This document shows, piece by piece, positions 51,121 through 61,418 of a stretch of DNA of 64,000 nucleotides. The DNA lies in assembly GCF_023213175.1 (NCBI RefSeq), contig NZ_CP093312.1:124001-188000 (forward strand), given 5' to 3'. Below the pieces are notes generated by a model that saw only the letters and a program-made list of their open reading frames with translations, searched no databases and was not told the origin of the DNA. Position 1 is the first letter of the stretch; each line of letters begins with the position of its first letter. This stretch comes from Sulfurovum sp. XGS-02 (GTDB lineage Bacteria > Campylobacterota > Campylobacteria > Campylobacterales > Sulfurovaceae). A program made the translations under genes and the position numbers.

Positions 51121-51915
51121 ATGAAGAAAATTGTGATGTTTGTAGTACTGTTTCTAACTGTACTACAAGCAGAGTCTTTGGGCGTAAATGAAAAGTTGGG
51201 TGAATATGTTCCACTTGATTTAACATTTATCGATGAAGACGGAAAAAGTAGAACACTCAAAGAGTATATGGATGGGAAACCTACGATCATCTCTTTAAAC
51301 TACTTTAGATGTGCAGGTATCTGTACACCACAACTTGAAGATATGGCAAAAATGCTGTCTAAACTTGACTTGGCTGAAAATACTGACTACAAAGCGTTGA
51401 CCATCAGTTTTGCACCGGATGAAACACCACCATTGGCAAAAGCAAAAAGAAAAACGATGCTAGACGCAATGACCAGACCCTACGTGAAGGATGCATGGCA
51501 CTTTTTACTCAGTGAAAACAACTCTTCGGCTATTTTGGCTGACAAAGTTGGATTTACGTATAAAAAGGAAGTATCCCAAGCAGGTGTGGTTGAGTGGATT
51601 CATGCTGCAACATTGATCATTATTTCACCGGAAGGGAAGATCACACGTTACCTTAATGGTATCGAACAACTTCCTTTTGATGTGAAAATGGCAGTGTTGG
51701 AGTCAGCACAGGGAAAGGTTGGACCGACCATAGCTAAAACTTTACTTTACTGTTTCGCATACGATCCAAAAGGCAAAACCTATGTGTTTGCCTGGGAGAA
51801 GATAGCAGCAACAGTAATATTGACGATTACAATTATCTTTTTTATCTGGCTTATCAAAGCAGGGAGAAGAGATCAAGAAGAACATCTAAATCAAAGGAGA
51901 GACATAGATGAGTAA
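51121..51915 (+). CDS. SCO1/SenC-family copper chaperone
   Basis: 264 residues, exported by an N-terminal signal (MKKIVMFVVLFLTVLQAES). Copper-binding C64-x3-C68 (FRCAGICTPQ) and H161 (EWIHAATL) are intact. Unusually there is also a C-terminal membrane helix (about residues 222-246). SCO proteins deliver copper to the CuA site of cytochrome oxidase subunit II. That suits its place as first gene of the cox cluster; it overlaps coxA by 8 bases (ATGAGTAA). Confidence 0.9.
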   Translation: MKKIVMFVVLFLTVLQAESLGVNEKLGEYVPLDLTFIDEDGKSRTLKEYMDGKPTIISLNYFRCAGICTPQLEDMAKMLSKLDLAENTDYKALTISFAPDETPPLAKAKRKTMLDAMTRPYVKDAWHFLLSENNSSAILADKVGFTYKKEVSQAGVVEWIHAATLIIISPEGKITRYLNGIEQLPFDVKMAVLESAQGKVGPTIAKTLLYCFAYDPKGKTYVFAWEKIAATVILTITIIFFIWLIKAGRRDQEEHLNQRRDIDE

Positions 51916-53563
51916 AACTTATTTCGACGAAACACACTGTGCCATCGGGCACCCTAAGAGTACATTCATGCAATGGATGCTTACGATCGACCATAAAAGA
52001 ATCGGTATTATGTATGCAGCTGTCATGTTTGTATTCTTTTTTGTAGCTGTATTTACAGCATTTGCAATGAGACTTGAACTGTTTGCACCAGGGGGACAGT
52101 ATATGGATGGAGACACCTTTAACCAGGCCTTCACACTACATGGTGTAATTATGATCTTCCTTTTTATTATCCCGGGGATCCCTGCGATATTTGGAAACAT
52201 CGTTATGCCATTGATGATCGGTGCGAAAGATGTATCTTTCCCAAGATTGAACTGGTTTACGTTCTGGCTCTATATTGCGGGTTGTTGTATTGCACTTGCA
52301 TCACTATTTATAGGTGAAGGTGTAGCCGATACAGGTTGGACATTCTATGCACCATACTCAATGAATACAGGAACAAACGTTATTATGGCGCTTGTGGCTG
52401 CATTTGTTCTTGGTTTTGCTTCTATTCTTACTGGACTTAACTTTCTTGTTACGATCCACAGACTTAGAGCTCCGGGTATGACTTTCTTTAAAATGCCACT
52501 GTTTGTATGGGGTATCTACGCAACGGCATGGATCCAGCTTCTTGCAACACCGGTTGTGGGTATTACGCTTGTATTAGCTATTTTGGAAAAATATTTTGGT
52601 ATCGGTATCTTTGATCCGGCTAAAGGGGGAGACCCGGTATTGTTCCAACACCTGTTCTGGATCTACTCTCACCCGGCTGTTTATCTTATGATTCTTCCTG
52701 CATTCGGTATTATGTCTGAAATTATTCCTACTTTCTCAAGAAAAGAGGTATTCGGATATAGAACGATCGCTCTTTCATCAGCATCAATTGCAGGTATCGG
52801 TTATCTTGTATGGGGTCACCACCTTTATACATCTGGTATGTCAGATATTGCTAAAACTGTATTCTCATTCCTGACTTTCTTTGTTGCTATTCCAACAGGT
52901 GTAAAGTTCTATGACTGGGTTGCTACAATGTATCAAGGTAAGATCGTTCTTTCAACACCAATGATCTGGGCATTAGGAACAATCATTACATTTGCGATCG
53001 GTGGTATTACAGGGGTTACTATTACAATGATCGGTATGGACGTTCACTTGCAAGATACTTACTATACAGTGGCACACTTCCATTACGCAATTCTTGGTGG
53101 GGTTGTATTCTTGCTGTTTGCTGGTATGCACTATTGGTTCCCGCTTGTAACAGGTAAAATGTACAACGAAACAAAAGCAAAAATCGCTTTCTATCTTAAT
53201 TTTATTGGATTTAACCTACTATGGTTCCCAATGTTCATTGCTGGTTACTACGGTATGCCAAGACGTTATTTTGACTACTTACCGGAATTTGAAATCTATC
53301 ACCAAATCTCATTTGTAGGAGCAGTGATCTTTATTGCTGGTCTAATCTATATGTTCTGGGTATTCTTTAAAGGTTGGACAAAAGGTGAGGCAACTACGCC
53401 TAACCCATGGAATGCAACAACACTTGAGTGGCACTTACCAACATCACCACCACCGCTAGAGAACCACTCTAAAGTACCATATGTAGATTTTGATCCATAT
53501 GAGTATAAACATGGTGAGCCAGTGGTTAAATTTAATTATGAAACGATGCAAAGGATAGACTAA
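51908..53563 (+). CDS. coxA: Haem-copper oxidase subunit I, A2 type
   Basis: 551 residues, about 12 membrane helices. The proton-channel region reads IYSHPAVYLMILP, the YSHP variant that defines A2-type oxidases and lacks the GHPEVY glutamate of A1 types. Copper B/haem ligands are in HPAVY, WGHHLYTSG and VAHFHYAILGG; the K-channel lysine is in PTGVKFYDW; low-spin haem ligand is in TLHGVIMIF. It is the catalytic subunit of a quinol- or cytochrome-c-oxidising complex; the haem-c-bearing CoxB here favours cytochrome c/quinol-complex electron donors. The stop overlaps coxC as TAATG. Confidence 0.95.
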   Translation: MSKTYFDETHCAIGHPKSTFMQWMLTIDHKRIGIMYAAVMFVFFFVAVFTAFAMRLELFAPGGQYMDGDTFNQAFTLHGVIMIFLFIIPGIPAIFGNIVMPLMIGAKDVSFPRLNWFTFWLYIAGCCIALASLFIGEGVADTGWTFYAPYSMNTGTNVIMALVAAFVLGFASILTGLNFLVTIHRLRAPGMTFFKMPLFVWGIYATAWIQLLATPVVGITLVLAILEKYFGIGIFDPAKGGDPVLFQHLFWIYSHPAVYLMILPAFGIMSEIIPTFSRKEVFGYRTIALSSASIAGIGYLVWGHHLYTSGMSDIAKTVFSFLTFFVAIPTGVKFYDWVATMYQGKIVLSTPMIWALGTIITFAIGGITGVTITMIGMDVHLQDTYYTVAHFHYAILGGVVFLLFAGMHYWFPLVTGKMYNETKAKIAFYLNFIGFNLLWFPMFIAGYYGMPRRYFDYLPEFEIYHQISFVGAVIFIAGLIYMFWVFFKGWTKGEATTPNPWNATTLEWHLPTSPPPLENHSKVPYVDFDPYEYKHGEPVVKFNYETMQRID

Positions 53564-54252
53564 TGGGACACGAATACGTACCTGAGATCGCGATCGATCG
53601 CGATGGGAATCAACACGAAGTACAAGGTTGGCAAGGTGATTATTACGGCGGGAAACTAGGTTTCTGGCTGTTCATGCTCACAGAAGTAATGATGTTTGGA
53701 GCAATGTTTCTCTCATTGGCTTACTATAATTCATTGCACCCGCAAGACTTTTTAGATGCATCTGCAGGATTGAACAGACTATTGGGTGGTACGAATACAG
53801 TGATTCTACTTGTTTCAGCACTTACAATGGGACTAGGGTTACTTAGAATGAGAGCCGGTGATGTAAAAGGTTCTAAGCTTATGATCTGGGCAACTATTCT
53901 TTTGGCAGTTGCTTTCTTGGTGATCAAAGGATTTGAATGGACTGCTGAATACCATCACGGTATCTTCTTGATGCATGACAAACTATTGCCTGAGTCATCT
54001 TTACCATTTGGTCAGAAATTATTCTATGGTCTTTACTTTGCAATGACTGGTCTCCACGGATTCCACATTATCATTGGTATCGGTCTTATGCTATGGTTAC
54101 TTAAAAGAATCAATGCGGGTAAAGTAAGCACAGAGCATCATATTTTACACTGGAACATCGCACTATATTGGGATATCGTACACCTTATTTGGGTATTCGT
54201 ATTCCCTTATTTCTATATGATCGGAGCAGGAGGAGCTACAGGTGGACACTAA
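53563..54252 (+). CDS. coxC: Haem-copper oxidase subunit III
   Basis: 229 residues with about five to seven membrane helices, family features GKLGFWLFMLTEVMMFGAMF and TGLHGFHIIIGIGLMLW, and HWNIALYWDIVHLIWVFVFP at the C-terminus. It is a non-catalytic subunit supporting proton uptake and stability. It overlaps coxA by one base and coxD by 11. Confidence 0.94.
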   Translation: MGHEYVPEIAIDRDGNQHEVQGWQGDYYGGKLGFWLFMLTEVMMFGAMFLSLAYYNSLHPQDFLDASAGLNRLLGGTNTVILLVSALTMGLGLLRMRAGDVKGSKLMIWATILLAVAFLVIKGFEWTAEYHHGIFLMHDKLLPESSLPFGQKLFYGLYFAMTGLHGFHIIIGIGLMLWLLKRINAGKVSTEHHILHWNIALYWDIVHLIWVFVFPYFYMIGAGGATGGH

Positions 54253-54571
54253 TACAGTAAATTATCAAGAAGAGAAAAAAGTATATTATAAAGTACTCGT
54301 GGGACTATTGCTACTGACAGCGGTTACATTTATTCAACCGCATATGTTTATGACACATTCAACATTTTTAGCGCAAATGCTTATTGCAGTGGTGAAAGCT
54401 TGGTTGATCGTGATCTACTACATGCACTTAAAAGGTGAGAAACTGATCGGCGCTATGGTATGGTTTGCACTAGCATTAGTCGCAGTTTTCTTTATTATCG
54501 TCATTGGTATTGATGTTGCCAATTTCCAATTTGGAGCTGAAAGTCATATTACTGCTCCTGCAGCACACTAA
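54242..54571 (+). CDS. coxD: Oxidase subunit IV (caa3 type small subunit)
   Basis: 109 residues with three membrane helices (about 17-35, 41-61 and 71-95) and the family-typical KAWLIVIYYMHLKGEKL. The start is a GTG at 54242 within the end of coxC, with GGAGGAG upstream; no later in-frame ATG would retain the N-terminal part. It is the small subunit of caa3/bo3-like oxidases. Confidence 0.88.
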   Translation: MDTNTVNYQEEKKVYYKVLVGLLLLTAVTFIQPHMFMTHSTFLAQMLIAVVKAWLIVIYYMHLKGEKLIGAMVWFALALVAVFFIIVIGIDVANFQFGAESHITAPAAH

Positions 54572-54586
54572 GAGGGGTTTTATTAT

Positions 54587-55798
54587 ATGAGTAATACATT
54601 AGAAGGATTTAGTACAAGTGCATCGACTTTTAACGCAGACCATGAGTTTGCGTTCTGGCTGCACGTATGGATTTCAATTGCACTATTTTTATCAGTAGTT
54701 GCACCGATGATCTACTTTGCATGGAAGTATCGTGCAGACAAGGTCAAAAATGAAGATATCGGTACATTAACACATCATACCGGGTTGGAATTGGCATGGA
54801 CGATCATACCTATCATCGCCGTGATGGTTTTCTTTTACTATGGTAATACAACACTACAAATGTTTAGAACACTTCCGACAGTGACTGATGATACAGTTGT
54901 AGTCAAGGTTGAAGGTTCTAAGTGGAAGTGGAAGTATGAGTACCCTGCAAATAAAAGCGGATATGTACATAAAATCGGTGGCGCTTTCAAAAAACCTGTT
55001 ATGGATGAGAACGGTAAATTGATCGAAGAGGGTACAATGGGTATCACTGCACTCTATGTACCGGTGGATACAGATGTTATCTTGGAGATGACAGCACCAG
55101 TGGATGATGTAATCCACTCATTTTATATCCCTGCATTCCGTATGAAAGAGGATGTGGTTCCGGGACGTACAACAAAACAATGGTTTAATGCATCTAAAGT
55201 GGGTGAGTATGATGTAGAGTGTGCCGAGTACTGTGGTACGGACCACTCATATATGTACTCTAGAGTAGTAGTACTTCCAAAAGAGGAGTATGATGCATGG
55301 TTTAACGGTACAGATAATACACCAAAAGGTAATTATGCTAAAGGTGGTGATGCACTAGTACAACGACATGGATGTACACAATGTCATGCAATTGAAACAG
55401 ATAAAGTATTAGTTGGACCTTCTCTTAAAACTAGAAGATTAACTGAAGAACAAGTATTAGATGTCATCAATAATGGTCAAGATCAACTTGGATATGCTAT
55501 GGGTGCAATGCCAGCTGGTATGGCTACAGGTGCAGATGCTAAAGAGATCGCTGCGTATGTAGCTGGTGGTATGAAAGGTGAACAACCTGCATCATTTGCA
55601 GCATGTAGTTCTTGCCATGGAATGGATGGTAAAGGTATGAGCGGAATGTCTCCAAACCTTGTAGAATACGATGCGCCACTTATAGGTCATGTATTGAAAA
55701 ATGGTAAAAAAGGTATGATAGGTCAAATGCCAGCATACCCTGATATGACAGAAGAAGAGATTTCAACAATTGCTGAATATCTCGAAACAGGTAAGTAA
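54587..55798 (+). CDS. coxB: Oxidase subunit II with CuA site and two c-type haem sites
   Basis: 403 residues. Two N-terminal membrane helices (about 22-46, 67-85). CuA ligands H177, C212, C216, H220 and M223 in a cupredoxin domain. Then a C-terminal extension with CxxCH at 263-267 and 340-344, i.e. two haem-c sites; most caa3 subunits II carry only one. Residues 286-385 match CcoP residues 177-276 at 77 of 100 positions by hand count, and the distance from the first CxxCH is also equal, so the module is shared with the cbb3 oxidase. The stop overlaps ctaB as TAATG. Confidence 0.95.
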   Translation: MSNTLEGFSTSASTFNADHEFAFWLHVWISIALFLSVVAPMIYFAWKYRADKVKNEDIGTLTHHTGLELAWTIIPIIAVMVFFYYGNTTLQMFRTLPTVTDDTVVVKVEGSKWKWKYEYPANKSGYVHKIGGAFKKPVMDENGKLIEEGTMGITALYVPVDTDVILEMTAPVDDVIHSFYIPAFRMKEDVVPGRTTKQWFNASKVGEYDVECAEYCGTDHSYMYSRVVVLPKEEYDAWFNGTDNTPKGNYAKGGDALVQRHGCTQCHAIETDKVLVGPSLKTRRLTEEQVLDVINNGQDQLGYAMGAMPAGMATGADAKEIAAYVAGGMKGEQPASFAACSSCHGMDGKGMSGMSPNLVEYDAPLIGHVLKNGKKGMIGQMPAYPDMTEEEISTIAEYLETGK

Positions 55799-56661
55799 TG
55801 ATTAAAGATTTTTTCGTAGTTACCAAATTTATTCTCTCCTTTGCAGTCAGTTTATCTGCACTCTTTGCCTATATCATGGCAAAGGGAGAGATTGGTGTAG
55901 ATATGTTTATTGCTACCTTCTCTGTACTTTTAGTAGCGATGGGAGTTTCGACTCTTAATCAAGTACAAGAGTATAAAGAAGATTCCAAGATGGAAAGAAC
56001 GAAAAATCGTCCTATCGCAGCGGGACGTATGTCCCCTCGTACCGGGATTATCATCGCATTAGTATTGATCCTGGTCTCATTTGCGTCTATCTATTCACTC
56101 TTAGGCCTTACAGGGATAAACTTTTTTGGTTTTGCATTTATTTGGTACAACCTCATGTATACACCTTTGAAGAAGAGATCTGCCGTAGCGGTGGTTCCAG
56201 GAGCGATACTGGGTGTTATCCCACCGGCTATCGGGTGGCTGGCAGCAGGCCATACACTCTTTGAGTTGGAGTTCATTGCCTTAGCGGTCTATTATTTTAT
56301 CTGGCAGGTACCACACTTTTGGTTATTGGTCATGCTCTTTCACGGTGATTACAAAGATGGTGGGTATCCAACAGCGATGCGTCTGTTTGGGGAAGGGACA
56401 CTACAGAGACTTACCTTTGTATGGCTCATACTGACCATACATGCAGGTATCTACCTGGTCTATACCTTCAATGTTTATTTAATGGTGACAGTGGTACTTT
56501 CTGCAGCACTTGGAGTATGGGCATTTATCACATCCCTGCAACTGCTCAAAAAAGAGTTTAAACTGACAGATGCACGTGCGATCTTCTGGAAGATCAATGC
56601 AGCATTTTTAGGGATCATCATACTTCTTAGTATCGATGAATATGTAAAACATCATATATAA
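55798..56661 (+). CDS. ctaB: Protohaem IX farnesyltransferase (haem O synthase)
   Basis: UbiA-family membrane prenyltransferase, 287 residues and about nine helices, that converts haem B to haem O. Aspartate/asparagine motif in NQVQEYKEDSKMERTKNRP and the second conserved region around WQVPHFWLL and HGDYKDGGYP. It closes the cox cluster. No haem A synthase (ctaA) gene is present in the window. TAATG overlap with coxB. Confidence 0.93.
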   Translation: MIKDFFVVTKFILSFAVSLSALFAYIMAKGEIGVDMFIATFSVLLVAMGVSTLNQVQEYKEDSKMERTKNRPIAAGRMSPRTGIIIALVLILVSFASIYSLLGLTGINFFGFAFIWYNLMYTPLKKRSAVAVVPGAILGVIPPAIGWLAAGHTLFELEFIALAVYYFIWQVPHFWLLVMLFHGDYKDGGYPTAMRLFGEGTLQRLTFVWLILTIHAGIYLVYTFNVYLMVTVVLSAALGVWAFITSLQLLKKEFKLTDARAIFWKINAAFLGIIILLSIDEYVKHHI

Positions 56662-56670
56662 TGATATAAG

Positions 56671-56712
56671 TAATAGCAGATCTTTCTGCTATTAAACTGC
56701 AGTTTAATAGCA
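56671..56712 (+). promoter_or_regulatory. Mutually exclusive hairpins downstream of ctaB
   Basis: TAATAGCAG (56671-56679) pairs with CTGCTATTA (56686-56694). The latter is also the left side of a perfect 26-bp palindrome (56687-56712, arms TGCTATTAAACTG and its complement). Only one of the two hairpins can form at a time, as in attenuators. It lies between ctaB and the gene at 56752. Confidence 0.5.
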
Positions 56713-56751
56713 CTTACTACACTTACATAAGTGACATTTTAAGGAACAAAT

Positions 56752-57285
56752 ATGCAAGAAAACCAATATACAATTCAAACGATCATAGAGAGTGTTTTTA
56801 AAGAACACAACTATAAGATCAAAAAAAGACTTATTTATGATAATGCACTGTTCGGAGGACTGAGCAGCAAGTGGATCAAATTGGCTTTTCTTATTTTACC
56901 GTTTGCGATGTATGCTGCCATATTCAATCCTACATCTTTTAAAGCGTTGGGTATCGCACAAGCCATTGTATTTTATATCATTCTTCTTGTATTTGCCATG
57001 CAGATCGTTGTAGCAGTCTCTTACTTTAACAATAAAAAGGTGTTAAAAACAGCTACCAAAGCATGGGAGGACTACTTCCCCAATATTGATTTTAAAATGA
57101 TACTCTCTTCTGGTGCCACACCTTATGCGGATTTTAAAAAATATTATGAAGCTGCACTCAGTGAGGGGTTAACTGAAGATGCACTCAAGGATAAAATGAG
57201 TGAAGCTTTCCAACAGATGGAATCTGAAAACACTCACCTTGTCGAGGCGATGAAGAAAGACAAAGAGAAAAGAGCAGGTAAATAG
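56752..57285 (+). CDS. Membrane protein of unknown family, 177 residues
   Basis: Two adjacent membrane helices in the middle (about 42-61 and 68-91) with a soluble N-terminal helix region and a long charged C-terminal helical tail (QQMESENTHLVEAMKKDKEKR). I do not recognise the family. AAGGAACAAAT precedes the ATG. It ends 1 base before the next gene's start, between the two oxidase clusters, so a role in oxidase assembly is conceivable but only from position. Confidence 0.7.
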   Translation: MQENQYTIQTIIESVFKEHNYKIKKRLIYDNALFGGLSSKWIKLAFLILPFAMYAAIFNPTSFKALGIAQAIVFYIILLVFAMQIVVAVSYFNNKKVLKTATKAWEDYFPNIDFKMILSSGATPYADFKKYYEAALSEGLTEDALKDKMSEAFQQMESENTHLVEAMKKDKEKRAGK

Positions 57286-57286
57286 T

Positions 57287-57901
57287 ATGTTCAAGCGTAT
57301 CATAGTAGTCAGTGTACTTTTCTTATCCGTACTCTCAGTATCACAAAGTGAAACGTTAAAAGTTTTATGCAGTGATAATAATTCAACTGCATGTTATGAG
57401 CATGGGCTCCCTATGGTCACCGGTGACAATGCGAAAGTTCAGGATATCAAAGAAGAGGGGTTGAGTTATATACGTAAAGCCTGTACGCTTGGAGAAGAGA
57501 GAGCGTGTGATATTATGGGTGATAACTACTACAAGGATACCAATTACGGTGCAGCGATACCCTATCTTGAAAAATCATGTCTCAGGGGTATAAAGTCTGC
57601 ATGTGAGGCGATGGGGACGATCTATCGTGATGGTCATGACGTAAGACCTGATGATGTCAGATCAAGAGAGTTTTATGAAAAGGCATGTGAACTCAAAAGC
57701 GGTGATGCCTGCTTTAATGTGGCTATCATCTATCGTGGCGGTTTTGGTGTCGAAAAAAACAGAACACAAGAAAAAGCGTTCTACAAAAAAGGTTGTGATG
57801 CCGGATTGAAAGCCGGGTGTGACCGATATGCCGAGTTAGATAATGAAGACAAAGGTATAGAAACCGGTATTTGGGCTACGATAAAAGGCTGGTTTCAATA
57901 A
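57287..57901 (+). CDS. Exported Sel1-repeat, cysteine-rich protein
   Basis: 204 residues with a signal peptide (MFKRIIVVSVLFLSVLSVSQS) and about three Sel1-like repeats of ~36 residues carrying regularly spaced cysteine pairs (EERACDIMGDNYYK, IKSACEAMGTIYRDG, SGDACFNVAIIYRGG, KAGCDRYAEL). This is the Helicobacter cysteine-rich protein (Hcp)-like pattern typical of Campylobacterota, where disulfide-linked helix pairs build a solenoid. Periplasmic scaffold or interaction role is likely; the partner is unknown. The periplasmic disulfides may be made by the VKOR-type system at 25778. Confidence 0.82.
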   Translation: MFKRIIVVSVLFLSVLSVSQSETLKVLCSDNNSTACYEHGLPMVTGDNAKVQDIKEEGLSYIRKACTLGEERACDIMGDNYYKDTNYGAAIPYLEKSCLRGIKSACEAMGTIYRDGHDVRPDDVRSREFYEKACELKSGDACFNVAIIYRGGFGVEKNRTQEKAFYKKGCDAGLKAGCDRYAELDNEDKGIETGIWATIKGWFQ

Positions 57902-57925
57902 ATCTTCTCTCCCTCTCAAAGTATA

Positions 57926-57948
57926 TTTAGGAGTAATACACTCCTAAA
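57926..57948. promoter_or_regulatory. Hairpin between the Sel1 gene and ccoN
   Basis: Perfect 9-bp stem TTTAGGAGT-AATAC-ACTCCTAAA, 24 bases after the Sel1 gene's stop. On the + strand it is followed by an A-run, so it is not a classic terminator in that direction. Confidence 0.45.
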
Positions 57949-58076
57949 AAAATCAATTAAATTGATAGATTAAACAGGAGTTAATTTCTCTTTTGGTGCT
58001 TTAAATCCCTCCATATTTGCGTTAAATGTAACCTATCCTCACATATATTTACATTCAATAATTTTTTAAGTACAGA

Positions 58077-58098
58077 TATAATCAAATAAGATTATAAT
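58077..58098 (+). promoter_or_regulatory. Two candidate -10 boxes upstream of ccoN
   Basis: TATAAT at 58077-58082 and again at 58093-58098, about 53-74 bases before ccoN. Tandem promoters are possible. An inverted ATCAAT-TAA-ATTGAT lies further up near 57951-57965; its half-site orientation is opposite to the usual FNR box. Confidence 0.45.
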
Positions 58099-58150
58099 TA
58101 TTATTGAGTGTTGTAATTTTATAACATAGAATTTATTCAAGGGGGTATGT

Positions 58151-59617
58151 ATGCAATCAAATGCAGCATTGGAATATGATTATTCATTAGCAAAAAAGTT
58201 TACCTTTTTAACTATTTTGTTTGGATTTTTAGGAATGTTGATCGGTACGATTATTGCCGCACAAATGGCATTTCCTGAATTAAACTATCTATTGGGAGAG
58301 TATGGGACATTCTCAAGACTCAGACCACTTCATACAAATACGGTTGTATTTGGATTTACGGTTTCGGCAATCTTTGCTACTTGGTTTTATATAGGGCAAA
58401 GAGTCCTTAAAGTATCTATGGCAGAATCGAAGTTTTTGATGGTGGTCGGAAACATTCAATTTTGGCTTTATTTTGTAGGAGCACTTTTAGCGACGATATC
58501 TTTGCTATTGGGTATTTCTTCTGGTAAAGAGTATGCTCAGTATGAGTGGTGGGCTGATCTTGTTGTAGTAGTCATTTGGGTACTTTGGGGCCTTGGTATC
58601 ATGGGTCTTATAGGGATCAGAAGAGAGAAAGCACTCTATATCTCTATATGGTATTTTCTTGCATGTTTCCTTGGTATTGCCATGTTGTATCTTTTCAACA
58701 ATATGTCGATCCCTACTTATTTCGCAACGGAAGGGCTTGGTGCTATCACACACTCGGTATCTATGTATTCAGGTACAAATGATGCACTAGTACAATGGTG
58801 GTATGGACACAATGCGGTTGCATTTGGATTTACTGTACCTATCGTTGGTATGATCTACTACTTCCTGCCAAAAGAGTCTGGACAGGCTATCTATTCTTAT
58901 AAGCTCTCTTTACTCTCTTTCTGGGGATTGATGTTCGTTTACCTATGGGCAGGTTCTCACCACCTTTTATGGTCAACAGTTCCAGATTGGATGCAAACAA
59001 TGGGTTCTGCGTTCTCAGTGGTACTAATTTTGCCATCATGGGGTTCAGCAATCAACATGCTCCTTACGATGAAAGGTGAGTGGAATCAGTTAACAGACAA
59101 TCCATTGATCAAATTCATGGTGCTTGCATCTACATTCTATATGTTATCAACGATCGAAGGTCCTATCCAAGCGATCAAATCAGTGAATGCCATTGCACAC
59201 TTTACTGACTGGATCCCTGGACATGTACATGATGGTGTACTTGGTTGGGTAACATTTATGATCATGGCTTCATTGTTCCATATGGCTCCGCGTATGTTCA
59301 AAAGAGAGATCTACTCTAGAAAACTTATGGAGACACAGTTCTGGCTTCAGACAACAGCGGTCGTGCTTTACTTTACATCTATGTGGATCGCAGGTATTAC
59401 ACAAGGTATGATGTGGAGAGCAGTAGATGAGTATGGTAACTTGATGTATTCTTTCATAGATACGGTCAATGTACTTCACCCTTACTACACGATCAGAGCA
59501 CTAGCAGGTGTAATGTACCTTATTGGTTTCATTATGTTCGCTTACAATATGTATAAAACGATGACTTCTGCTAAAGAGATTACAGAAGAACCACAGTTTA
59601 GAACACCTATGGCATAA
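58151..59617 (+). CDS. ccoN: cbb3-type cytochrome c oxidase subunit I
   Basis: Catalytic haem-copper subunit of the high-affinity cbb3 oxidase, 488 residues and about 12 helices. Copper B/haem ligands in WWYGHNAVAFGF, AGSHHLLWST and DWIPGHVHDGVLGW; low-spin haem ligand in RPLHTNTVVFGF. It has AAGGGGG before the ATG. First gene of ccoN-O-Q-P, the oxidase that normally works at low oxygen in this phylum. Confidence 0.97.
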   Translation: MQSNAALEYDYSLAKKFTFLTILFGFLGMLIGTIIAAQMAFPELNYLLGEYGTFSRLRPLHTNTVVFGFTVSAIFATWFYIGQRVLKVSMAESKFLMVVGNIQFWLYFVGALLATISLLLGISSGKEYAQYEWWADLVVVVIWVLWGLGIMGLIGIRREKALYISIWYFLACFLGIAMLYLFNNMSIPTYFATEGLGAITHSVSMYSGTNDALVQWWYGHNAVAFGFTVPIVGMIYYFLPKESGQAIYSYKLSLLSFWGLMFVYLWAGSHHLLWSTVPDWMQTMGSAFSVVLILPSWGSAINMLLTMKGEWNQLTDNPLIKFMVLASTFYMLSTIEGPIQAIKSVNAIAHFTDWIPGHVHDGVLGWVTFMIMASLFHMAPRMFKREIYSRKLMETQFWLQTTAVVLYFTSMWIAGITQGMMWRAVDEYGNLMYSFIDTVNVLHPYYTIRALAGVMYLIGFIMFAYNMYKTMTSAKEITEEPQFRTPMA

Positions 59618-59632
59618 GGGAGGTACTTTATT

Positions 59633-60301
59633 ATGTTTTTTCATTGGTTAGAAAAAAATCCATTCTTCTTCGCTTCGGGGATCTCGATCGTTATTGCATT
59701 TGCAGGACTTATTGAGATCGTACCGAATTTTGCGAAGGCGGCAAGACCGGTAGTAGACCTTAAACCTCGTACTGTCCTCGAGCTTGCAGGTAAAAATGTC
59801 TATATTAAAGACAACTGTATGTCATGTCACTCACAGCTTATCCGTCCATTTAAATCTGAGACGGACCGTTATGGGGATTATTCACTTTCAGGTGAGTATG
59901 CATTTGACAGACCATTCCTTTGGGGTTCTAAAAGAACTGGTCCGGACCTTCACCGTGTAGGAAACTACAGAACAACAGATTGGCATGAAAACCATATGTT
60001 GAATCCTGCTGAGATTGTACCTGGGTCTATTATGCCGGCATATAAACACCAGTTCACGAACCTGGCTGATATTGAAACTGCCTATGCTGAAGCGGTAACG
60101 GTTAAAAATGCATTTCACACACCATACGGCCCTGAGTTTAAAGGAACCAGAGCTGCATGGGAAGCACATAAACCGAAAGTTCTTGCAGACGCAAAAGCAA
60201 TTGCAGATGATATGAAAAACAAAGACGTTAAAGAAGCAGTTGCGAGAGGTGAAGTACCTGAAATCGTAGCACTGATTGCTTACCTTAACAGTTTGAAATA
60301 G
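59633..60301 (+). CDS. ccoO: cbb3 oxidase subunit II, mono-haem cytochrome c
   Basis: 222 residues. One N-terminal membrane anchor (about 11-30) and a single CxxCH haem-c site in DNCMSCHSQLIRP; later PGSIMPAYKH supplies the axial methionine. Conserved WGSKRTGPDLHRVG is a CcoO/FixO hallmark. It follows ccoN by 15 bases. Confidence 0.96.
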   Translation: MFFHWLEKNPFFFASGISIVIAFAGLIEIVPNFAKAARPVVDLKPRTVLELAGKNVYIKDNCMSCHSQLIRPFKSETDRYGDYSLSGEYAFDRPFLWGSKRTGPDLHRVGNYRTTDWHENHMLNPAEIVPGSIMPAYKHQFTNLADIETAYAEAVTVKNAFHTPYGPEFKGTRAAWEAHKPKVLADAKAIADDMKNKDVKEAVARGEVPEIVALIAYLNSLK

Positions 60302-60312
60302 GCGAGAGAAAG

Positions 60313-60531
60313 ATGGACATCAGGGATCTTCAAGGCTATGCCAGTTTCTTTATGACCATTTTTTTGGTAGTGATGCTGTATGGGTATATTATACACCTGT
60401 ACAGAAGTGAAAAAAAAGGTGAGCGTGATTATGAAAAATACGGGAATATTGCACTTGATGATGAAGTCACAAGTACACCCGTAGAAGATAAACCCGCATC
60501 ACAAAGAGAATATAAGGAGGAGAATAAATGA
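60313..60531 (+). CDS. ccoQ: cbb3 oxidase small subunit CcoQ
   Basis: 72 residues with one membrane helix (about 9-30) and a charged cytosolic tail. In other bacteria CcoQ stabilises the CcoNO-CcoP assembly. It overlaps the ccoP start as ATGA, with GGAGGAG in its last codons acting as the ccoP ribosome site. Confidence 0.88.
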   Translation: MDIRDLQGYASFFMTIFLVVMLYGYIIHLYRSEKKGERDYEKYGNIALDDEVTSTPVEDKPASQREYKEENK

Positions 60532-61418
60532 ATGCATTAATGATAAAAGCATTGGCATTTGCAGCGGTGTTGATCATCGCAACGATCGCTGTTGTAACGA
60601 GTCTGGATATTGATATCTTTGCAGACTCTGTAAATGCGATAACAATGGGGGGAGCAATTGCAGTTGCGACGATCACAGCATCGGTTGCGGTTAAATATGT
60701 GAATCAGATGAAAACGGATACAGCAGCTGGTCCGCTTGCAGAGGATAACTGGGACGGTATCGGAGAGTATGAGAATGAACTACCATCAGGTTGGGCATAT
60801 TCATTCTTGGCAGTTTTTCTTTGGTCAATGTGGTATGGTCTTATAGGGTATCCTGTAAATGCCTATAGCCAGATCGGTGAGTACAATGAAGATGTACTGG
60901 CATATAATGCAAAGTTTGAAGCTATACACAAAAATGCGGATGAAGCAACACTAAAAGAGATGGGTGAGTCTATCTTTTTGGTACAGTGTCAGCAGTGTCA
61001 CGGTGTGACAGGAGATGGTCTTTCAGGTAAAGCACAAGATTTTACAGCCAGAATGAGCAAAGAGCAAGTATTGGATGTGATCAAGAATGGTCAAAACCAA
61101 TTAGGGTATCCTATGGGTGCAATGCCTGCAGGTATGGCACAAGGTGCAGATGCTGAAGCGATCGCTGAGTATGTTGCCGGTGGTATGAAAGGTGAACAGC
61201 CTGCAGCATTCGCAGCGTGTGGTTCTTGTCACGGAATGGATGGTAAAGGAAACAATGGTATGTCACCAAACCTTGTATCTTACGATGCTGCATTGATGAA
61301 CCATGTAGTTCAAAACGGTAAGAAGGGTATGATCGGTAAAATGCCGTCATTTAAGACACTTATTACACCAGTACAAGAGAAAGCTTTGACTGTATATATT
61401 CAGTCATTGTCAAACTAA
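60528..61418 (+). CDS. ccoP: cbb3 oxidase subunit III, di-haem cytochrome c
   Basis: 296 residues. Two membrane helices near the N-terminus (about 6-24 and 37-56) and a third hydrophobic stretch (about 89-109); then two haem-c sites, CQQCH at 154-158 and CGSCH at 231-235, with methionine-rich axial-ligand regions GAMPAGM and MIGKMP. It passes electrons to CcoO/CcoN. Residues 177-276 are nearly identical to the CoxB C-terminal module about 5.6 kb upstream. Confidence 0.96.
   Translation: MNALMIKALAFAAVLIIATIAVVTSLDIDIFADSVNAITMGGAIAVATITASVAVKYVNQMKTDTAAGPLAEDNWDGIGEYENELPSGWAYSFLAVFLWSMWYGLIGYPVNAYSQIGEYNEDVLAYNAKFEAIHKNADEATLKEMGESIFLVQCQQCHGVTGDGLSGKAQDFTARMSKEQVLDVIKNGQNQLGYPMGAMPAGMAQGADAEAIAEYVAGGMKGEQPAAFAACGSCHGMDGKGNNGMSPNLVSYDAALMNHVVQNGKKGMIGKMPSFKTLITPVQEKALTVYIQSLSN

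Follow-up and report, generated by a model that had tools for sequence, protein, structure and literature searches.

The gene coxB in a Sulfurovum genome (54587..55798, + strand; an ORF of 403 aa) encodes subunit II of an A2-type haem-copper oxidase with a chimeric two-haem C-terminal tail, in which a segment resembling CcoP, the di-haem subunit of the adjoining cbb3 oxidase, interrupts CoxB's own cytochrome domain. We consider it likely that this tail began as a single chimera, formed by recombination of a CcoP segment into a mono-haem CoxB domain, which then spread with cassette exchange. The observations behind this view are the mosaic anatomy of the tail, a junction common to all tails of this kind, the incongruence between tail and core, and the local replacement of the coxB 3' end.

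The two-oxidase island and its subunit II

The window that we analysed is a stretch of 64,000 nucleotides (G000:C1:124001-188000) from a 2.19 Mb single-contig genome whose kin are Sulfurovum. By Pfam and NCBIfam matches, the island in it reads sco1-coxA-coxC-coxD-coxB-ctaB-orf-sel1-ccoN-ccoO-ccoQ-ccoP. SCO1, coxA (with a YSHP motif), coxC and coxD, the remaining genes of the A2 oxidase operon, lie 5' of coxB (51121..54571, +), and a ctaB/cyoE-like haem O synthase gene of the UbiA family follows it (55798..56661, +; PF01040, with TIGR01473 the best NCBIfam match, under its cut-off). The cbb3 oxidase is encoded by ccoN, ccoO and ccoQ (58151..60531, +), whose island order is kept in relatives, and by ccoP (60528..61418, +), an ORF of 296 aa with FixP_N (PF14715) and two PF13442 matches. 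The cox-to-cco order is kept in most relatives examined, three Sulfurimonas loci (L015-L017) among them; the sel1 gene is absent from several relatives' islands, and at locus L014 no cco genes were detected within the stretch of DNA examined there. Elsewhere in the window's genome (L001/L006, G000:C1:58271-59092) there is an open frame of 448 aa, matching Cytochrome_CBB3 twice, that was recognised neither as CoxB nor as CcoP.

The CoxA translation contains LFWIYSHPAVYLMILP, that is, a YSHP motif instead of GHPE, which makes the enzyme A2-type. Haem A synthase (CtaA, PF02628) gave no match in any of eight genomes searched, the window's included, while the controls were positive, and "caa3" is therefore probably a misnomer as far as the haems of subunit I are concerned; a caa3 oxidase in the strict sense requires CtaA, and the cofactor of subunit I is here likely to be haem O or B.

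CoxB is a genuine subunit II: it matches TIGR02866 (183.9 bits over cut-off), PF00116 and PF13442 (twice), and its core (residues 1-240; 54587..55306, +; PF02790/PF00116) comprises two TM helices and a CuA domain with the Cys, Cys, His, His, Met and Glu ligands. These ligands (C212, E214, C216, H220, M223 and H177) are invariant among 40 homologues. In the CoxB model the CuA domain matches that of CoxB 4w9z (Z 16.8, 2.6 A, 134 residues), and the top whole-model Foldseek match is Thermus caa3 subunit IIc (2yev). What follows the CuA domain makes CoxB a di-haem (cc-type) subunit II, namely an invariant first CxxCH (residues 263-267; 55373..55387, +), a second CxxCH that is invariant across tails and CcoP (residues 340-344; 55604..55618, +), and Met ligands (M308 and the MP of "GQMP", both conserved). 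Conservation of the two CxxCH and of the Met positions extends over tails and CcoP alike. CoxB does not qualify as a CcoP, scoring 44.6 bits with TIGR00782 against a cut-off of 180 and having no FixP_N.

Mosaic anatomy of the CoxB tail

An earlier note on this DNA had described the two oxidases as sharing an almost identical di-haem cytochrome c module. The CxxCH sites that it named (CoxB residues 263 and 340, CcoP residues 154 and 231; 77 residues apart in both) were confirmed, and its hand count of 77 identical residues in 100 for the ungapped alignment of CoxB 286-385 with CcoP 177-276 proved exact. Such likeness is far above chance: over 100 aa without gaps, the CoxB core shares at best 17 identical residues with CcoP, and the maximum for the shuffled tail is 22 (2000 shuffles). 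BLASTP aligned CoxB and CcoP at 66% over 131 aa (E 4e-59), and in a PDB profile search with the tail the best match was CcoP 3mk7. DNA identity over the aligned 100 residues is 79%, and the identities at the three codon positions, 83/90/64%, indicate purifying selection, the 64% at third positions also arguing that the event was not recent. The same codon is used at 52 of the 77 identical residues, compared with 37.8 expected from codon usage (z 3.6), and this excess points to residual DNA homology that is not yet saturated. Both copies are intact, with two CxxCH each.

The likeness does not, however, extend over a whole module. When the tail was scored in ten-residue blocks by log-odds between a mono-haem CoxB profile and a CcoP profile, block 271-280 favoured mono-haem CoxB over CcoP by 57 bits, all blocks from 281 to 380 went towards CcoP by 22-47 bits each, block 381-390 was neutral, and residues 391-403 favoured mono-haem CoxB over CcoP by 24 bits. 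This pattern places the CcoP segment within CoxB's own haem domain. The tail accordingly starts with a CoxB-derived linker and the N-terminal half of haem domain 1 (residues 241-281; 55307..55429, +), holding the first CxxCH and ending in ...VGPSLK. Next comes the CcoP-derived segment, recognised by log-odds and by the tail trees (residues 284-382; 55436..55732, +), which supplies the Met-ligand half of domain 1 and most of domain 2 and is homologous to CcoP residues 175-273 (61050..61346, +). The C-terminal helix (residues 391-403; 55757..55795, +) is not CcoP-derived and is closest to the ends of mono-haem CoxB, although its source could also be another class I cytochrome c, as the profiles compared were those of CcoP and mono-haem CoxB only. 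Near-identity to CcoP thus holds for CoxB residues ~284-382 but not for the region around the first CxxCH, where DNA identity is ~0.44. The earlier suggestion that the CcoP module moved onto subunit II survives for the same segment only; the half-domain with the first CxxCH and the C-terminal helix are still CoxB's own, and copying of the whole module from CcoP is ruled out by the junction log-odds.

Recombination between homologous cytochrome domains is the simplest origin for such an arrangement. The ancestor would have been an A2-type oxidase subunit II with one fused haem c, which gained a segment of about 100 residues from a Sulfurovum cbb3 CcoP inside its own cytochrome domain. One crossover may have fallen directly behind "GPSLK" in domain 1 and the other close to the "MP" of the Met-ligand loop in domain 2 (log-odds breakpoints ~281-283 and 381-390); placed in the first and in the second half of homologous domains, the two would turn one haem domain into two. 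The product would have a domain 1 that starts as CoxB and goes on as CcoP, and a domain 2 that is CcoP with a CoxB-like helix at its end.

We also considered that the two haem domains arose by duplication of CoxB's own domain, and rejected this because residues 281-380 are CcoP-like, unlike the tandem cases L049 and G139. Tandem duplication of the own mono-haem domain did produce the two-haem CoxB of L021, L022, L049 and L116 (G139), which makes it the third way in which a subunit II has come by two haems. A longer CoxB type of 435-466 aa, with CxxCH motifs 121-141 residues apart, was seen at L121 (G133), L122, L108, L110, L158 and L159, G133 having it in addition to a CcoP-tailed CoxB. Among CcoP proteins, the open frames of L046 and L100 are 509 aa, far above the usual length, which suggests a C-terminal fusion or extension.

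Distribution, exchange and possible origins of the tail

We found 32 CcoP-like CoxB tails, all with the same junction. Since they occur in two families, with the tail clade represented in Sulfurovum and Sulfurimonadaceae, the tail is not a duplication private to this genome. In a tree of 99 tails and CcoP sequences the tails form one clade (100/97) among Sulfurovaceae CcoP, and the tree comparison that the earlier note had called for placed them there in every ML tree. With the window and G133 tails and six further long-branch rows left out, the clade persists (29 rows, 100/96) among Sulfurovum CcoP, and the nearest donor lineage changes once the window and G133 tails are omitted. For this short segment, AU tests did not reject placements of the tails outside, or sister to, all CcoP compared (p 0.29, 0.37 and 0.19). 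Nesting of the tails among CcoP is, on these sequences, the best-supported reading, short of formal proof.

The tail does not follow the rest of the protein. The CoxB core tree requires the CcoP-tail state to change eight times or more, and mono-haem and tandem tails are interspersed with the CcoP-like ones. Genome G124 has the same two-oxidase island, but its coxB is mono-haem; its island proteins are mostly 84-99% identical to those of the window, the exceptions being coxB (73%) and fixH (82%). DNA identity between the two is ~0.8-0.97 on both flanks and falls to 0.48-0.75 only from ~55250 to the coxB stop. This confinement of the difference to the coxB 3' end indicates that tail states are exchanged as 3' cassettes (55250..55798, +), CcoP-like against mono-haem or tandem. 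After a single origin, then, the chimera would have spread across Sulfurovum and into Sulfurimonadaceae, with CcoP-like, mono-haem and tandem versions of the coxB 3' end changing places as cassettes at one locus. A plasmid search gave 610 matching records, all below 60% identity and none covering 80% of the query; the best 10 of the 610 stop by residue 283.

A second, independent CcoP-to-CoxB fusion was found in G017 (L064/L119, G017:C19; own CcoP L120, G017:C97). Its tail is 73% identical to, and sister to (100/96), the CcoP of its own genome.

The earlier note had favoured recent duplication within the genome, or ongoing gene conversion keeping the neighbouring operons alike, and we regard this as unlikely. 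G017 is a true within-genome pair, and the only case where the own CcoP ranks first among the 66 CcoPs. The window and G133 tails do have their own lineage's CcoP in the best four, the own CcoP ranking 4 and 2, respectively (others 8, 6, 14 and 11), so that the claim that the closest relative of a tail is the CcoP of the same genome holds for the G017 fusion but not for the window tail. Against such a process, (i) tails cluster with tails (100/97); (ii) with G017 left out, own-genome pairing shows no excess (double-centred diagonal, permutation, p 0.44); (iii) despite adjacent operons, the own CcoP ranks 58 in L011, 59 in L012, 49 in L013, 63 in L015, 65 in L016 and 65 in L017, and 38 in G128; and (iv) a DNA identity of 79-80% is not that of a recent event. 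The ranks of 38-65 of 66 in these seven genomes and the permutation test rule out within-genome concerted evolution as a general explanation. What stays suggestive is a tract in the window lineage (residues 338-355, ~17 codons; 55598..55651, +), picked out by a triplet walk test as a possible later CcoP-to-CoxB conversion (p 0.03-0.1 in the main comparisons, with no correction for how many triplets were tried). It is common to the window and G133 and absent from G142 and G122, which resemble other tails there, and this suggests either a short conversion or a tail exchange in G142/G122. Splitting the segment into halves lent weak support to conversion in the window lineage, the second half grouping the window and G133 tails with five CcoPs of the lineage (77/84).

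It is somewhat less likely still that the tail goes back to an ancient di-haem cytochrome, sister to all CcoP, with the likeness kept from that ancestry or reached by convergence. The AU tests would allow such a placement (p 0.19-0.37), but it did not once give the best tree (lnL 10-24 lower), the window and G133 tails are 79-82% identical to CcoP, which is inside the range of CcoP in one family, and the sharing ends sharply at residues ~281 and ~382. Transfer in reverse, from the CoxB tail into the CcoP of the window's lineage, we consider very improbable; a symmetric identity by itself gives no direction, but every relative has the segment as part of its normal CcoP domain, even where the genome's CoxB is mono-haem, and in CoxB the segment breaks into a mono-haem domain.

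Probable function of the tail and known oxidases

The fused cytochromes of known caa3 oxidases pass electrons to CuA. The second haem in the CoxB tail most likely extends this relay outward. With both haems attached, a periplasmic cytochrome c or the bc1 complex would feed electrons to the distal haem, from where they would go on to the proximal haem, CuA and the active site; contact with CuA would be kept by the CoxB-derived half of domain 1, and the CcoP-derived part would form the donor-facing surface. Where tail and CcoP are alike, a donor common to the A2 and cbb3 oxidases is plausible. Likeness to the resident CcoP is no general requirement, because in Sulfurimonas genomes the tail is paired with an own CcoP that is only 42-47% identical over the segment.

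An AlphaFold model of the tail alone has a mean pLDDT of 84. Foldseek with this model gave no match at E<=0.001 (best 8smr_G, E 5e-3, TM 0.41), and the predicted structure does not look like a clean CcoP copy. Weak matches to single-domain cytochromes span residues 1-8 to 156-157, of which just ~70 are aligned. One could read this as a nested protein, with the CoxB N-helix and C-helix forming an outer cytochrome and the CcoP segment a circularly permuted inner one, but we find this doubtful, and it is simpler to assume a sequential CcoP-like fold.

Families A and C of the haem-copper oxidases are commonly seen as separate lineages, each with its own electron-entry subunit. In the history that we favor, part of the entry subunit of family C recombined into subunit II of family A, crossed genera of sulfur-oxidising bacteria and was swapped against one-haem versions, which would mean that distantly related oxidases can swap parts. 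Islands of close kinship whose main difference is the cassette, such as those of the window and G124, offer natural pairs for studying the second haem, donor choice and transfer rate.

In the literature searched we found no description of a CcoP-derived CoxB tail or of a cbb3-derived recombining two-haem version. The caa3-type (A2) oxidase of Sulfurimonas pluma and Sulfurovum sp. AR is of the same kind and comes from the same two genera, and horizontal acquisition has been proposed for S. pluma, with a known relative in Sulfurovum; the passages found of that account mention no CcoP-like tail, tail exchange or chimera (PMC10066037). Another report calls two-haem subunit II uncommon and, for Shewanella and Desulfovibrio, explains it by internal duplication (PMC3899249, citing Lobo 2008 and Lamrabet 2011). 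Like the window's protein, the ccaa3-type subunit II of Shewanella oneidensis (CoxB) and Desulfovibrio vulgaris is an A-family subunit with two CxxCH in a C-terminal extension; its two haem domains share 61% identity, whereas the window's extra haem is CcoP-derived, and those enzymes are A1 whereas the window's is A2 (YSHP) (PMC3899249). CcoP of cbb3 oxidases (3mk7, 6xkw, 8smr), the source of the inserted segment, likewise has two serial class I haem domains, but it lacks a CuA domain, and its TM part and first CxxCH half-domain are missing in CoxB. Thermus caa3 subunit IIc (2yev) has, as in CoxB, a CuA domain fused to cytochrome c, but with one haem c.
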